A stretch of DNA of 20,481 nt from a virus, in IMG/VR virus record IMGVR_UViG_3300025909_000018, positions 1-20,481 of that record. One strand, written 5' to 3'. Position 1 is the stretch's first letter; every line of letters begins with the position of its first letter. The translations under genes and the position numbers were made by a program. The notes under the pieces were generated by a model, which was given only the letters and a program-made list of their open reading frames with translations, searched no databases and was not told the origin of the DNA. This document shows positions 1,226 through 11,382 of this stretch, one piece after another.

Positions 1226-1879
1226 ATGGACGAGAACGAGGCACTGCTGGCGTTGAACGAGCGACGCGCTGCACGGGCACTGGACAAGGCGCCCGCGCTG
1301 GTCGGGTACATGCGTCACCTGGTCACCCCGGGCGGTGCAGCGCAGGATGGCACACCGCGCGCGCCGAAGGCCGACCCGCCGCTGCCGTTCCGTGCGGATG
1401 CTGTGGATGACGCGGACGCCCTGTACAGCGAACTGGTGAACCGTGTGGATGGGTGGATGCGGTTCCTGCCGGTGCTGCCTCCGGAGGTGCGGACGTGGCG
1501 TCCGGACGGCGGCGACGTCGCAGGGTTCCCCTCTGGGACGACACCGGCCGGTGCGGAGGTGCTGACGTGGCTGGTGTGCAGGTGGCTGATGCGCCACCAC
1601 CAGCAGTTCGTCGCGTTGCAGGCTGTGCTGGGTCTGCCGGTCGCGGATCACTACTTCGCGGATGTTGCGGATGCGGTGGGGCGGATGCGTGGCCGGTACC
1701 CGATGGCACCGCAACCGCCGCGTCGGGCGTTGCGTCGGGAGTGCCCAGTGTGTAAGGAGCGGGCGGTGGTGGCGAGGATTCCGCAGGATGTGCGGGACAC
1801 GGAGGTGGTGTGTGAGCAGTGCGGGTATGAGATCCCGTACGACTCGTACGCCGGACTAGTCGAAGGATGGCTGAAATGA
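1226..1879 (+). CDS. Hypothetical protein with C-terminal zinc-ribbon-like motif
   Basis: This 217-residue product starts at ATG 1226, 3 bp after the previous stop. The first ~60 residues are charged and probably flexible (RRAARALDKAP, then a Pro/Ala-rich stretch). The middle has a Trp-rich helical part (LTWLVCRWLMRHHQQF). The C-terminus has two CxxC pairs, CPVC and CEQC, about 21 residues apart, typical of a zinc ribbon that binds nucleic acid or proteins. The residues after it (YDSYAGLVEGWLK) are well preserved to the stop. Proteins with this layout occur in actinobacteriophage genomes without a known role. Zinc binding is inferred from the motif. The stop overlaps the next start (ATGA), suggesting translational coupling. 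Confidence 0.78.
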   Translation: MDENEALLALNERRAARALDKAPALVGYMRHLVTPGGAAQDGTPRAPKADPPLPFRADAVDDADALYSELVNRVDGWMRFLPVLPPEVRTWRPDGGDVAGFPSGTTPAGAEVLTWLVCRWLMRHHQQFVALQAVLGLPVADHYFADVADAVGRMRGRYPMAPQPPRRALRRECPVCKERAVVARIPQDVRDTEVVCEQCGYEIPYDSYAGLVEGWLK

Positions 1880-2334: not shown

Positions 2335-2567
2335 ACATCCCAGAGGAAGCCGCACGCCGGTACCCGCACAGCGGAAAGATCATGGACTACCAGCAGGACA
2401 TCTTCCGCGACGTGTTCATCGCTGGTGCTGAGTGGGCGCGCGCAGAAGCGTTTCGAGAAGCGGCCGAACTAATTGCAGACGCCGAGCATGTGCGCGACCG
2501 GACGGCAACATCTGTGCTTCGTACTCTGGCTGAGGGCACACTGGAAAGAGGCAACAGGTGCTGTTGA
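2331..2567 (+). CDS. Hypothetical small helical protein
   Basis: The 78-residue product starts at ATG 2331, which overlaps the previous stop (ATGA). A strong GGAGG at 2320-2324 lies 6 nt upstream. It is predicted mostly helical with the pattern FIAGAEWARAEAFREAAELIADAE, a motif that recurs in many short phage proteins of unknown role and resembles the GFKDGWHARDAE segment of the preceding product. It ends in GNRCC. The stop overlaps the next gene by 10 nt, consistent with coupling. No domain can be named. Confidence 0.72.
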   Translation: MNIPEEAARRYPHSGKIMDYQQDIFRDVFIAGAEWARAEAFREAAELIADAEHVRDRTATSVLRTLAEGTLERGNRCC

Positions 2568-2812
2568 CAGTGGCGCAGGCGGCGAAGCGGGTGAAACGCA
2601 GCCGGCGCACGATCGAACGGTGGATGGCGGACAAGACGGACCCGTTGCCGGTGCAGTGGTGGTCGAACATCCGCATGGTGAACATCGACGACCTGCTGCG
2701 CGTGTACCGGGCGCGACTCATGCAGGCACATCCGCACTTGACCTCGGAGCAGGTTGAGAGGCACCTGATCGGCAAATACCTGCCGATCAGATCAACACAC
2801 CGTCGAGATTGA
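2558..2812 (+). CDS. Small helix-turn-helix DNA-binding protein (MerR/excisionase-like)
   Basis: The 84-residue product starts at GTG 2558 with AAAGAGG about 6 nt upstream. The N-terminus LTVAQAAKRVKRSRRTIERWM is a classic winged-helix/HTH of the MerR-excisionase type: helix 1 TVAQAAKRVK, turn, then recognition helix RRTIERWMA. It continues with a wing-like segment (DPLPVQWWSNIRMVNIDDLLR) and a helical tail. Such proteins act as repressors, activators or recombination directionality factors. No integrase is visible nearby, so a transcriptional role is the simpler reading. It is the last gene before a non-coding, dyad-rich gap whose first inverted repeat (2795-2822) overlaps its stop codon. 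Autoregulation or control of the downstream genes is possible but is inference. Confidence 0.8.
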   Translation: MLLTVAQAAKRVKRSRRTIERWMADKTDPLPVQWWSNIRMVNIDDLLRVYRARLMQAHPHLTSEQVERHLIGKYLPIRSTHRRD

Positions 2813-2822
2813 CACGGTGTGT
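2795..2822 (+). promoter_or_regulatory. 9-bp inverted repeat overlapping the HTH gene stop (operator or hairpin)
   Basis: ACACACCGT (2795-2803) is perfectly complementary to ACGGTGTGT (2814-2822) around a 10-nt centre. A second overlapping dyad, GGTGT-GTC-ACACC, spans 2816-2828. No T-run follows directly, so this is not a textbook terminator. A dyad next to a gene for a DNA-binding protein, over a TTGACA hexamer, fits an operator. Confidence 0.45.
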
Positions 2823-2841
2823 CACACCCTTCCGCTAGGAT
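2809..2841 (+). promoter_or_regulatory. Possible sigma-70-type promoter for the 3037-4920 gene run
   Basis: A consensus -35 hexamer TTGACA lies at 2809-2814 and a plausible actinobacterial -10, TAGGAT, at 2836-2841. The spacing is 21 bp, longer than the usual 16-19, which weakens the call. The -35 overlaps the stop of the HTH gene and the 2795-2822 dyad. A second small dyad, CTTGC-TAG-GCAAG (2842-2854), lies just after the -10. The position upstream of a non-coding gap and a new gene run is right for a promoter. Confidence 0.4.
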
Positions 2842-2851
2842 CTTGCTAGGC

Positions 2852-2883
2852 AAGCGCGCACCCTGAATTCAGGCGGCGCGCTT
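2852..2883 (+). terminator. Bipartite GC-rich hairpin with short T-run (possible terminator)
   Basis: AAGCGCGC (2852-2859) pairs with GCGCGCTT (2876-2883). Between them, after a 2x2 mismatch, lies the perfect palindrome CCTGAATTCAGG (2862-2873). Only three T residues (2882-2884) follow, so intrinsic termination would be weak. It could instead be a structured leader element or a protein-binding dyad. The structure is visible; its role is inference. Confidence 0.4.
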
Positions 2884-2892
2884 TCCGCGTTC

Positions 2893-2919
2893 TACCGGTG
2901 CACCCCTTCAGCGCCGGTA
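2893..2919 (+). other. Stem-loop in the non-coding gap
   Basis: TACCGGTGC (2893-2901) pairs with GCGCCGGTA (2911-2919), a 9-bp stem with one G-U type pair and a 9-nt loop. It is one of a series of consecutive hairpins in the 2813-3036 gap. No coding sequence is supported here. The role is unknown. Confidence 0.4.
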
Positions 2920-2964
2920 TCACCGCTCGACCTGCGGGCATTCGGGAGCGAAACGGTCGACAAA

Positions 2965-3013
2965 TCCGGTGGGCGTGCACATCACACGTGGGTGCTGTTG
3001 CACGCCCACCGGA
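2965..3013 (+). other. Strong 15-bp stem-loop upstream of the 3037 gene
   Basis: TCCGGTGGGCGTGCA (2965-2979) is perfectly complementary to TGCACGCCCACCGGA (2999-3013) around a 19-nt loop that itself contains the palindrome CACGTG. This is the most stable structure in the gap. It has no following T-tract and ends 23 nt before the GTG start of the next gene, so it would lie in the 5' leader of that mRNA. Possible roles are a translational or transcriptional control element, mRNA stabiliser, small RNA or protein-binding site. The sequence alone cannot decide. Confidence 0.6.
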
Positions 3014-3036
3014 ACCGGTCCTTTCGGGGGTGAAGC

Positions 3037-3330
3037 GTGTGGACCCTGGACGCGTCACCAGACGTTGACCTGCAGCTGGAACTGGATGAACTCCAGGACT
3101 TCGCCTGCTCCGACCCGCGGCATGAACGCGGTGAGTCGTATCACACCCCGGACACGGCGGCGGAGTTCATGCTGTTGAACCCGTGCTGCGGTGACCGTGC
3201 GATCGTGTGCCGGTCGCGCGCTTACTACTTGAAGTACCAGGCGGCAACGATCCGGTGCGCACGCTGTCAAACCGAGTGGGCACCTCACCGTTACCGGTTC
3301 ATCCCACTGCCGGGAGTGATGCCGTTATGA
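3037..3330 (+). CDS. Small Cys-rich protein, probable zinc binder
   Basis: The 97-residue product starts at GTG 3037 after a GGGGGTGAAG stretch. The N-terminal ~20 residues are acidic and Leu-rich (DVDLQLELDELQDF). Six Cys follow: C24, C50, C51, C58, and a CARC knuckle at 74-77, with His residues nearby. The C-terminal part, RCARCQTEWAPHRYRF, looks like half of a zinc ribbon. It is the first gene after the hairpin-rich gap, and its stop overlaps the next start (ATGA). No family is recognised. Metal binding is inferred from Cys spacing only. Confidence 0.7.
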   Translation: MWTLDASPDVDLQLELDELQDFACSDPRHERGESYHTPDTAAEFMLLNPCCGDRAIVCRSRAYYLKYQAATIRCARCQTEWAPHRYRFIPLPGVMPL

Positions 3331-4288: not shown

Positions 4289-4636
4289 ATGACGTACGCA
4301 GAGCAGTACCTGAGTCAACCGGAGAACATGATCCGGATCAGCGACGACATCGGGTACACGTGGACGTGCTACGACCCGCAGGGCGACAACGGTCAGGGTC
4401 TGCAGTGGAGCAGCCACGTGCACGACATCACGTGCCTGTGGGTCTGGCATGACTGCGGGCAGATCCTCGGTGAAGACACGATCATGCCGGGTGCACGCTT
4501 CGGCTGGCGTCCGGGTGGTGTGCGAGCTCACACGCTCGTGCAGATCGACCCGCTGACGATTACAGCGTCGGTGTACTGGCCCGACTGCTGCGGCAAGCAC
4601 GGGTTCATCACGAACGGCGCGTGGATCGCAGCCTGA
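4289..4636 (+). CDS. Hypothetical protein, DUF6527-like
   Basis: The start is ATG 4289, with AGGGAG at 4277-4282 six nt upstream; an upstream in-frame start at 4217 would overlap the preceding gene. The 115-residue product has Cys at 27, 49, 56, 100 and 101. Its C-terminal half reads DPLTITASVYWPDCCGKHGFITNGAW in order (residues 87-112), resembling the Thr-x-x-x-Ser-(V/I) followed by Cys-x-x-His-Gly-F-I-x-x-G pattern I associate with DUF6527 phage proteins. That family's role is not known to me. The stop overlaps the start of the HNH gene by one base. The family call is tentative. Confidence 0.68.
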   Translation: MTYAEQYLSQPENMIRISDDIGYTWTCYDPQGDNGQGLQWSSHVHDITCLWVWHDCGQILGEDTIMPGARFGWRPGGVRAHTLVQIDPLTITASVYWPDCCGKHGFITNGAWIAA

Positions 4637-4920
4637 TGGGCCGTCGCAGCGGTCGCCCGTACGAACGCAGCAAGACGATCGTCAAGCGGAACGCTGAACA
4701 GTGTTGGCGCTGCGGTCGACCATTGGACCCAGCCGCACGCCGTGGTGAACCAGGGTTCGTCACGGTCGGTCACCTGGTCGCAGTCGAGGACGGCGGCACC
4801 GACGACCTGTCGAATCTCGCACCGGAGTGCGGGCCATGTAACTACGGTGACGGCGCGAACCGCACGAACGCTAAGCGCGCAGGACGCGCATTGAACGTCT
4901 GGCACAAGCCGGGCTGGTAA
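4636..4920 (+). CDS. HNH endonuclease
   Basis: The 94-residue product starts at ATG 4636 (TGATG overlap with the previous stop). It carries the beta-beta-alpha-metal nuclease signature: zinc knuckles C23-x2-C26 and C65-x2-C68, the general-base His in VGHLVAVEDGG (H46), and SNLAPECGPCN with N60 and N69. The usual DH of the motif is GH here. In HK97-like phages an HNH protein often lies beside the terminase genes and helps cut DNA at cos during packaging. This gene is the last before the non-coding block and the terminase genes, which fits that role. A free-standing homing-type nuclease is the alternative. Confidence 0.85.
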   Translation: MGRRSGRPYERSKTIVKRNAEQCWRCGRPLDPAARRGEPGFVTVGHLVAVEDGGTDDLSNLAPECGPCNYGDGANRTNAKRAGRALNVWHKPGW

Positions 4921-5287: not shown

Positions 5288-5329
5288 ATACCACCAGCAC
5301 CGATAGACCGCGCCGTGTTCCAAAAATCT

Positions 5330-5366
5330 CCCCCCGATTTGTTTTGGGGGTCGCGTGCGCGCGCGA
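5330..5366 (+). other. Adjacent dyads upstream of the packaging genes; candidate cos nicking region
   Basis: Five C residues (5331-5335) pair with GGGGG (5346-5350) around GATTTGTTTT. Immediately after comes TCGCGTGCGCGCGCGA (5351-5366), a near-perfect 16-bp palindrome. Two-fold symmetry next to the terminase operon is expected of a cos nicking site. The C-run hairpin also resembles a minus-strand terminator, since read leftward it is followed by GAGATTTTT. Neither role is proven. Confidence 0.35.
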
Positions 5367-5379
5367 GGGGAGCGTTCGA

Positions 5380-5559
5380 ATGGGTCCGTTGCGCGCGGAG
5401 CTGGAGGTGGTCGAGCGGTTCCTGTTGTCGTTGGGGATCGTGCTCGATGAGGACATGAAGTTCGTGGAGGTGCGGCTGACTGCTGATGCTGTGGTGCTGG
5501 TCTGGTTGACGGATGAGTGGACGCGGCTTGAGCGGACGTATCCGGTGGTGTGGTCGTGA
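5380..5559 (+). CDS. Hypothetical small protein, first gene of late operon
   Basis: The 59-residue product starts at ATG 5380, with GGGGAG at 5367-5372 seven nt upstream. An in-frame TTG at 5344 lies in the dyad region and is not favoured. The sequence is a short helix (PLRAELEVVERFLLSLG) followed by two beta-type segments (KFVEVRLTADAVVLVWL) and a charged end. It contains no known motif. It is coupled to the next gene by a GTGA overlap. A position between the candidate cos region and the terminase small subunit suggests a packaging-associated or accessory role, but nothing in the sequence shows it. Confidence 0.65.
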   Translation: MGPLRAELEVVERFLLSLGIVLDEDMKFVEVRLTADAVVLVWLTDEWTRLERTYPVVWS

Positions 5560-5759
5560 CCGCGGGGAAGCCAGAGCAGAAGGTGATCCTCTGCGGCGAC
5601 GATGGGGCCGACCAGATCATCACTCATGAGGGTGCGATGACCGATCGCGAGTTCGATCTCTGGGCTGAGGGTATCGCGAAGGGTGCAGTGGCCGCGGCGC
5701 GGATGCTCGGACGACCGGACACGTTCATGGACGATCCGATCATGGACCCGCTCGCATGA
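5556..5759 (+). CDS. Hypothetical small protein upstream of terminase
   Basis: The chosen start is GTG 5556, overlapping the previous stop (GTGA); GTG 5550 is in the same frame and cannot be excluded. The 67-residue product contains ILCGDDGADQIITHEGAMTD in order near residues 12-31, then a helix FDLWAEGIAKGAVAAARML and a Pro/Asp-rich end. No family is recognised. The ribosome binding site is weak, which fits translation coupled to the upstream gene. The stop overlaps the next start as ATGA. Confidence 0.65.
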   Translation: MTAGKPEQKVILCGDDGADQIITHEGAMTDREFDLWAEGIAKGAVAAARMLGRPDTFMDDPIMDPLA

Positions 5760-6217
5760 GCACCCGGCGGCGTCCGGAGCCGAAGACGTTGAGCCTGGTG
5801 GAGTCGACGGAAAAGGCGATCGCTGCGGCGCATCATCTGACGGACATGGATGGTGCGGCGGTGGATTTGCTGCGCGGGTTGGCTCGGAAGATCGACGCGT
5901 GGGATCGGATCGTGGCGTGGGCGCTTGAGGATGTCGCGGAGACGTCTGGTCGGCCGGCGGTGCCGGCGAACGACAACGTGTCGATGCCGACGTACATGAA
6001 GTTGTGTGAGCAGTTGGGGTTGACGCCGGCGGGTCGGAAGAACCTTGATCTGAAGGAGGCGCAGCGTGGCGGCAAGCTCAACGCGGTCCGCGCGCTCCGA
6101 CCGGTCGAAGGCGGCAGGCAGCCGGCGAAGCGTGCCGCGCCCGCGCGGTCCGGTGTTCGGGTGCGAGCAGCCAAGAGTGTTCACTCCGCCGTTGCGGAGG
6201 CTGACACCGCGGACTAG
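5756..6217 (+). CDS. terS: Terminase small subunit
   Basis: This 153-residue protein is the expected DNA-recognition subunit that brings terminase to the packaging site. It begins at ATG 5756, coupled to the previous stop. Residues ~10-90 are helical, with LTDMDGAAVDLLRGLARKIDAWDRIVAWALE and a later YMKLCEQLGLTPAGRKNLDL segment. This matches the helical TerS-like proteins placed before HK97-type large terminases in actinobacteriophages. The last ~50 residues are Arg/Ala-rich and lie over the start of the large subunit gene in another frame. Sequence identity in small terminases is low, so the call rests mainly on position, size and helical pattern. Confidence 0.75.
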   Translation: MSTRRRPEPKTLSLVESTEKAIAAAHHLTDMDGAAVDLLRGLARKIDAWDRIVAWALEDVAETSGRPAVPANDNVSMPTYMKLCEQLGLTPAGRKNLDLKEAQRGGKLNAVRALRPVEGGRQPAKRAAPARSGVRVRAAKSVHSAVAEADTAD

Positions 6218-7652
6218 TCGCGGGTTCGAGGTGATCACGTTCGCGGAGGATGTGCTCGAGGTTGAGCTGTTCCCGTGGGAGAAGTGGCTGCTGATCCACG
6301 CGCTCGAGCTGAACCCGGATAACACGTTCCGGTTTCGGATCATTGTGCTGCTGGTTGCCCGGCAGAACGGGAAGTCGCTGCTGCTGCAGATCCTGTCATT
6401 GTGGCGCATGTTCGTGGATGGTGCGCCGTTGGTCCTCGGGACCGCGCAGAACCTGGACATTGCTGAGGAGATCTGGCAGGGTGCCGTCGATATCGCGGAG
6501 GGCATCCCGGATCTCGCGGCGGAGATCGCTGAGGGCGGCGTGGTCCGCACGAACGGCAAGAAGGCGTTGCGCCTGGTGTCGGGTTCCCGGTACAAGGTGC
6601 AGGCGGCGACGCGGCGCGGTGGTCGTGGTCTAACTGGTGACCTGGTGCTCCTCGACGAGTTGCGGGAGCACCAGAACTGGGAGGCGTGGGGCGCGATCAC
6701 GAAGACGACCCGTACCCGGTCGTTGGCTCAGATTTGGGCGGCGTCCAACGCGGGTGATGAGTCATCGGTGGTGCTGGGTCGCCTGCGGATGCTCGCGCAC
6801 CTCGCACTGGGCGACCCCGACGGGTTGTTCTCTGAGGACGACCTTGACCTGCCTGACGACATCGAATTCGACGACTCGCTGGGCCTGTTCGAGTGGTCGG
6901 CGCCGCCGGACTGTGACGTCCTCGACCGTGACGGGTGGGCGCAAGCGAACCCATCGATGGGGCATATCCCGTCGATGGAACGCTCGATCGCGTCGGACGC
7001 GAGCACAGACCCGGAGGCGGTGTTCCGCACTGAGGTGCTGTGCCAGTGGGTCGACAGCATGCAAGAGGGTGCGTTCCCTCCGGGCGTGTGGGAAGCGACC
7101 CGGGTGTCGGAGTCGGAGCAGATCACAGGGCAGATGAAGTTTGCGCTGGATGTGCGCACCGGGGTGAAGCAGTCGTTCGCGCTCACCGCAGTGGGGACCG
7201 GCACGAAGGGCCGTGACGTGCTCGATCTCGTGCACTACGAGTCCGGGGTGGATCAGCGGTGGGCGCGCGATCACATCGTGGACACGGTGGTGAGAATCCT
7301 GAAGGAGCACGGCGTCTACGAACTCGCGATGGACAAGTACGGCGAGAACGGGCACCTGCAGGCACGGCTTGAGGACAACGACATCACCATCCTCTGGTTG
7401 GACTCCTTGGACATGCGCAGCGGGTGCGCGGCGATCACGGATGGGCTGGTCAACCGGACGCTGGTGCATCACGGTGACGAACCGCTCACGGTCGCGGTGA
7501 TGGGTGCCGGGAAGCGGAAGTCGGTTGAAGGCTTCCTGTGGTCGCAGGCCATGTCGACGTCCGACATCACAGCGTTGCGTGCGGCGACGGTCGCCTATTG
7601 GGTGCACGTCGGTGAACCCGGCGACTACGACCTCATGGATTCGTTCGGATAG
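6066..7652 (+). CDS. terL: Terminase large subunit
   Basis: This is the packaging ATPase and nuclease that pumps DNA through the portal and cuts it. The start is GTG 6066, supported by a perfect AAGGAGG at 6053-6059 with a 6-nt spacer, although it lies 152 bp inside the small-subunit gene. The 528-residue product has the conserved entry segment RRLTPRTSRGFEVITFAEDVL (44-64), Walker A ARQNGKS (98-104), Walker B LVLLDE (193-198) and a coupling motif WAASNAG (224-230). An RNase-H-like nuclease half has candidate metal ligands D362 (FALDVRTG), D423 (LAMDKYG) and one of the Asp at the C-terminus (YDLMDSFG). Length and motif order are normal for the family. Confidence 0.95.
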   Translation: MAASSTRSARSDRSKAAGSRRSVPRPRGPVFGCEQPRVFTPPLRRLTPRTSRGFEVITFAEDVLEVELFPWEKWLLIHALELNPDNTFRFRIIVLLVARQNGKSLLLQILSLWRMFVDGAPLVLGTAQNLDIAEEIWQGAVDIAEGIPDLAAEIAEGGVVRTNGKKALRLVSGSRYKVQAATRRGGRGLTGDLVLLDELREHQNWEAWGAITKTTRTRSLAQIWAASNAGDESSVVLGRLRMLAHLALGDPDGLFSEDDLDLPDDIEFDDSLGLFEWSAPPDCDVLDRDGWAQANPSMGHIPSMERSIASDASTDPEAVFRTEVLCQWVDSMQEGAFPPGVWEATRVSESEQITGQMKFALDVRTGVKQSFALTAVGTGTKGRDVLDLVHYESGVDQRWARDHIVDTVVRILKEHGVYELAMDKYGENGHLQARLEDNDITILWLDSLDMRSGCAAITDGLVNRTLVHHGDEPLTVAVMGAGKRKSVEGFLWSQAMSTSDITALRAATVAYWVHVGEPGDYDLMDSFG

Positions 7653-11347: not shown

Positions 11348-11382
11348 GTGAGGGCCGTACCCCGTGTGGGTGCGGCCCTCAC
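11348..11382 (+). terminator. Strong stem-loop after the capsid gene (terminator-like, no T-tract)
   Basis: GTGAGGGCCGTACCC (11348-11362) pairs with GGGTGCGGCCCTCAC (11368-11382), a 15-bp stem with one T-G wobble and the 5-nt loop CGTGT. It lies just after the capsid stop and 20 nt before the next start. No T-run follows, so it may reduce read-through or protect the capsid mRNA 3' end rather than terminate fully. Confidence 0.6.

Follow-up and report, generated by a model that had tools for sequence, protein, structure and literature searches.

A stem-loop cluster behind an HTH gene as a candidate early/late control region of an actinobacterial phage

What could a gene-free gap packed with strong stem-loops be doing directly behind the gene of a small HTH protein? 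The question arises in the viral contig IMGVR_UViG_3300025909_000018, whose 20,481 bases are called the window below. All genes lie on the + strand. A DnaB-like helicase and small genes precede the HTH gene and the gap; further small genes and HNH come next, and beyond a second gap stand the genes for TerS, TerL, portal, protease, capsid and tail, then a lysin-like one (Table 1). TerL is closest to Arthrobacter phages (53% to Coral). A near-identical contig, L004, has one difference in 5,425 bases (99.98%), which falls within the 15-bp stem's loop. It extends beyond the right end of the window and reaches a tyrosine integrase on the opposite strand; the phage is therefore probably temperate. 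The source is most likely a temperate actinobacterial siphophage, a virus of soil bacteria.

L004 starts at window position 2903, within the hairpin cluster, which perhaps reflects an assembly break at strong structure. Elsewhere in the window, the protein encoded at 3572-4129 matches phrog_1128 ('enoyl-CoA hydratase-like'); its Streptomyces phage relatives are annotated as peptidases, and the product is possibly an NlpC/P60-type enzyme. A strong hairpin, GTGAGGGCCGT...GCGGCCCTCAC, stands at 11348-11382, immediately 3' of the capsid gene, and is probably a terminator.

Table 1. Positions of the features discussed in the text.
Feature	Position	Strand	Remarks
Zn-ribbon protein, phrog_1467	1226-1879	+	PHROG match; phrog_1467 overlaps phrog_908; putative role
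HTH protein, candidate late regulator	2558-2812	+	84 aa, basic, pI 11.3, HTH_17-like; putative function
Fifth stem	2765-2774/2781-2790	unstranded	perfect 10-bp palindrome, 3' end of HTH gene
Dyad 1	2795-2803/2814-2822	unstranded	9 bp, perfect; encloses TTGACA; candidate operator, putative binding
Candidate promoter	2809-2841	+	TTGACA 2809-2814, TAGGAT 2836-2841, spacing 21; not canonical
Second dyad	2810-2824		TGACAC-GGT-GTGTCA
Hairpin 2	2852-2859/2876-2883	+	8 bp; inner 12-bp palindrome CCTGAATTCAGG
Hairpin 3	2893-2901/2911-2919	+	8/9 Watson-Crick, one G-U as RNA
Stem 4	2965-2979/2999-3013	unstranded	15 bp, perfect; 19-nt loop; -37.8 kcal/mol with flanks
First gene 3' of gap	3037-3330	+	GTG start, GGGGG ribosome-binding site
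HNH endonuclease	4621-4920	+	in related phages the final gene ahead of cos
cos-like sequence	about 5310-5375	unstranded	CTCCCCCC...GGGGGTCGCG..., also GGGGGTCGCGTGCGCGCGCGAGGGG; resembles Coral left end
TerS and TerL	5756-7652	+	TerS 5756-6217, TerL 6174-7652; late module begins here

The stem-loop cluster and its surroundings

The original prediction had described four inverted repeats at 2795-3013 in a region free of genes, and all four are present at the positions claimed. It had missed a fifth stem, at 2765-2790. The non-coding gap spans 2813-3036 (224 nt). A gene through the gap was considered and is ruled out by the six reading frames, which carry no coding signal. The density of stem-loops is above chance, and fold energy, perfect-stem count and window rank all agree on this. 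The region 2795-3036 folds at -125.8 kcal/mol, compared with -92.6 +/- 4.9 for dinucleotide shuffles (z -6.8), and its opposite strand gives a z of -5.6. Perfect stems of at least 8 bp number three in 2781-3036 (shuffles: mean 0.09, maximum 2 in 500), and 2821-3040 takes first place among 1014 windows ranked by G+C-corrected fold energy. None of the other three long gaps stands out (z -0.6 to -1.7).

The full fold of hairpin 2 (2849-2886) has an energy of -24.1 kcal/mol, is followed by the tail CTTTCC and is terminator-like. A terminator scan for five T in eight gave zero matches; 2849-2886 has a strong stem and, as RNA, the tail CUUUCC. The 15-bp stem ends 13 nt upstream of the ribosome-binding site of the gene at 3037, which lies outside the stem. 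No Rfam family reaches its gathering score in the region, and the gap DNA has no similarity to any phage record. Relatives sought in IMG/VR via the HTH and DnaB proteins gave none, and scans for the 15-bp stem found only the same phage in IMG/VR and nothing in plasmids. The gaps of distant relatives cannot be aligned to that of the window, and those of close relatives are near-identical.

Candidate promoter, operator and regulator

Two promoter-like hexamers had been reported to lie over the first stem. TTGACA is indeed inside it; TAGGAT is 14 nt past it. A consensus sigma-70 scan of this region found no promoter, because the two hexamers stand 21 nt apart. The TGA stop codon of the HTH gene is the TGA within TTGACA. 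The motif CGTC-N4-TTGAC occurs once in the window, both strands included, exactly at this stop (about 0.16 expected by base count). The palindromes at 2765-2790 and 2795-2822 have no half-site in common, and no copies of either were found across the rest of the window. The former may serve as an upstream binding site. An operator array for the adjacent HTH protein had been suggested; the phage comparison below favours this for the first dyad, and for hairpin 2 the favoured role is to end or gate a transcript.

The HTH gene is the last one after the DnaB cluster. In Pfam its protein matches only generic HTH models, with weak scores below the cut-off, and its best PHROG match is phrog_66, 'excisionase and transcriptional regulator'. 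Searches of Pfam and PHROGs did not place it in the RinA, Ltr or ArpU families, and the Q-family models PF06530, PF03589 and PF06323 gave no match up to E 0.05. A match to Arthrobacter MerR-like proteins came from a profile that contained the window protein and was circular: it was gone once that protein was left out. The profile built without it fails to detect the HTH protein, and homology of the regulators is therefore not demonstrated. The predicted structure (pLDDT 65) is too weak for a fold search.

Similar layouts in other phages

When the gap that separates HNH from the MerR-like gene in Coral was used as the query, 27 Arthrobacter phage records (some duplicates) were retrieved, 14 of which were read and aligned. 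Common to the 27 records is a conserved box, approximately CGTCCA-N4-AAGTG, then GCGTC-N4-TTGACT-N18-AACACT. It is located after the MerR-like gene, overlapping the 3' end of that gene in most records, with other genes intervening in LittleTokyo and Marchesin. Downstream follow a strong hairpin, HNH, cos, TerS and TerL. The hairpin is very strong, stands about 50-60 nt 3' of the box and is complete in 12 of the 14 phages read; for Cupello and Marchesin, the stretch read stops ahead of or inside it. Its sequence varies by group (CTCCCCCGG...CCGGGGGGG, GGCCCGGCCTAGTG...CACTAGGCCGGGCC and GTAGCTCCCCGGTA...TACCGGGGGGCTAT); pairing is kept across groups, and the tail is CTTTCC or similar. The stop codon of the regulator is the TGA inside TTGAC in seven phages (Coral, RedFox, Andrew, Renna12, Leona, KHumphrey and PhluffyCoco) and in the window, and several of the seven, like the window, have CGTC 4 nt ahead of TTGAC. 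A dyad surrounds the -35-like element in the window (9-bp arms) and in Coral (CGTCC-N9-GGACG).

The window thus resembles the Coral/Andrew/Kuleana-type phages in the place before cos, TGA in TTGAC, CGTC-N4-TTGAC and the CTTTCC-ended hairpin, but its DNA cannot be aligned to theirs and the regulators are without detectable homology. Those phages have one strong hairpin, whereas the window has three, plus extra genes between gap and HNH, its cassette lying 1.6 kb upstream of HNH and not adjoining it. These resemblances were picked out in hindsight, and taken singly each is modest; in combination they make it likely that the window and the Arthrobacter phages share one plan, through descent or convergence. 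The cassette was not recognised in the relatives with 57-64% TerL identity that were searched (L012, L013, L017 and L077), and is therefore common but not universal. We found no description of the corresponding region in the literature on Arthrobacter phages.

L077, a Galbitalea prophage, was the one 57% relative in a TerL scan of bacterial genomes. It has an 11-bp palindrome (5546-5583) immediately 5' of a ribosome-binding-site-like sequence, near HNH, a placement resembling that of the window's 15-bp stem before 3037.

The covariation test called for in the original prediction was carried out on the corresponding hairpin from other phages, since the only near relative of the window is near-identical and distant ones are unalignable. 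The Arthrobacter hairpin alignments are too gappy for a formal pair count, and covariation was counted on loci with phrog_908 proteins only. A search with the phrog_908 protein gave ten IMG/VR loci, eight of which align. ArV2 gp66 (E 6e-13) and MrSmee gp75 (E 1e-41) match phrog_908, both with a MerR-like domain at the end. Directly behind the gene in ArV2, and two small genes on in MrSmee, stands a -10-like TAGTGT or TAGTCT and then a hairpin ending in CTTTTC or CTTTC. The same plan recurs with phrog_908 proteins in ArV2, MrSmee and IMG/VR actinobacterial prophages. Most of the eight gaps conserve TGTAGTAC; they also have a small hairpin, GGGA/TCCC, and a terminator stem of 13 bp. This stem covaries across the eight loci: three pairs are changed on both sides, and 97% of cells are paired. 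The covariation score was reached by none of 500 shuffles, and slid controls scored lower. The window's Zn-ribbon protein belongs to phrog_1467 and phrog_8013, two families that MrSmee gp75 matches as well, so the window may carry the same parts on two genes. In the actinobacterial prophages L066-L074, a near-invariant small element, GGGATAGCTGTCCC, is found about 20-60 nt past the phrog_908 gene, next to where transcription presumably starts; it may be a recognition site.

The window gap between HNH and TerS (423 bp) holds a cos-like sequence, which also resembles a place in L012. In Coral and LittleTokyo, HNH is the last gene before the genome end, and the first genes beyond lead to TerS and TerL. 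Given the likeness to the Coral left end, in the same place as cos, cos is probably at about 5310-5375 and not at 2795-3013, which would make the former the likely packaging end of the phage. The hairpin cluster has no similarity to the known genome ends of relatives; that similarity sits at about 5310-5375.

In phage lambda, the Q-pR'-tR' module consists of the regulator gene, a promoter with a binding element, a promoter-proximal hairpin and late genes running through cos. The window has a comparable order: regulator, candidate promoter with putative binding element, hairpin and late genes across cos. It differs from the Q system in having no Q-family Pfam match, a leader that would be much shorter and no identified pause element, and antitermination is putative. 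The loading of lambda Q has been described (PMC7171158). The early cluster of Gram-positive phages closes with the gene of the late regulator, a small basic protein; the 3' end of that gene carries the regulator's binding repeats, and directly behind it come the late promoter, then endonuclease, terS and terL (PMC13123087). As with RinA, LtrC of phi13 and Alt of TP901-1, the final early gene of the window encodes a small basic protein and has repeats at its 3' end, with a promoter position behind it and then HNH, terS and terL. Unlike theirs, its protein is HTH_17/MerR-like, its repeats are palindromes and not direct repeats, and terminator-like hairpins follow the candidate promoter. By analogy, the HTH protein could be an Ltr-type activator of late transcription, a match of position only. 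In the ESAS elements of cluster K mycobacteriophages, an inverted repeat and a putative promoter occur together ahead of a gene (PMC11373665), and the window also joins these two before a gene. ESAS occur several times per genome and are linked to a repeated 13-bp start-associated sequence, whereas the window has one region only. A search of the window for a repeated start motif of the cluster K kind found the ribosome-binding-site motif exactly once and otherwise little beyond chance. Late expression in mycobacteriophages Adephagia and ZoeJ starts near the right cos end, and mycobacteriophage promoters are described as poorly defined (PMC11373665).

Alternative readings and the candidate early/late switch

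We consider it moderately probable that the gap controls the passage from early to late genes, with the HTH protein acting as activator of the adjoining promoter and the hairpins separating, and perhaps gating, early and late transcription. The HTH protein, made from the last early gene, would bind two palindromes: that at 2765-2790, inside the 3' part of its gene, and that at 2795-2822, around the -35-like element. Bound there, it would activate a promoter at about 2809-2841 with hexamers too widely spaced for unaided use. Transcription would proceed into a short structured leader with terminator-like hairpins at 2849-2886, 2893-2919 and 2965-3013. These hairpins would halt read-through out of the early operon. 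They may in addition hold back the late transcript, up to the point at which the regulator or some other factor allows passage. The late transcript would run from 3037 onward, across cos, into the terminase and structural genes. A start near 2848 would put the first hairpin almost at the RNA 5' end, a poor spot for a terminator of its own transcript, so this hairpin may mainly stop transcripts that arrive from the early genes. Late transcripts, or translation of 3037, may instead be the target of the 15-bp stem.

Ordinary punctuation would need less: tandem terminators close the early operon, an unregulated host-type promoter restarts transcription, and the HTH protein has another job, for example as an excisionase-like protein or a repressor of a different promoter. 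Strong hairpins commonly follow operons, and the CTTTCC tail and the phrog_66 match fit this account. It would make a coincidence of the dyad around TTGACA and of the recurring order of regulator, box and hairpin, and an unregulated promoter is not favoured, given the lack of canonical spacing. We judge this account unlikely.

A promoter here would yield a short structured RNA, and a structured leader or small RNA is therefore possible, either a trans-acting hairpin RNA or a leader controlling translation of 3037 via the 15-bp stem. The strong fold (z -6.8), the stem 13 nt ahead of the ribosome-binding site, and the conserved small hairpin and covarying terminator in the short transcript of the phrog_908 loci are consistent with such an RNA. 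It becomes quite improbable in view of the near-equal folding of both strands (z -6.8 and -5.6), the missing Rfam match and a ribosome-binding site outside the stem. Two perfect palindromes beside an HTH gene, one over a -35-like element, might also form a repressor operator region for immunity or early-promoter control instead of a late promoter; their lack of further copies in the window makes this very unlikely, as does their place where early and late genes meet, a long way from the integrase, which the near-identical contig carries at its right end. A packaging, replication or partition site, the last two raised by the original prediction, is scarcely credible: inverted repeats are clustered and L004 begins among them, but the gap is without iterated repeats and the cos-like sequence lies where Coral and LittleTokyo have cos, on which grounds we reject such a site at the cluster.

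Returning to the early/late control region, late-gene activation in actinobacteriophages is poorly known, and a cassette that recurs at one set position in the genome points to a candidate late regulator and promoter. The cassette is present in many cultured Arthrobacter phages and is thus directly testable with existing isolates. Tentatively, and with considerable doubt, we suggest a widespread, undescribed actinobacteriophage switch, in which MerR-like or HTH_17 proteins (phrog_908, phrog_2474 and the window type) activate a promoter overlapping the end of their own gene and act together with a promoter-proximal terminator. If true, that switch would unite two principles, Ltr-like activation and a gating of the late operon like that by Q.
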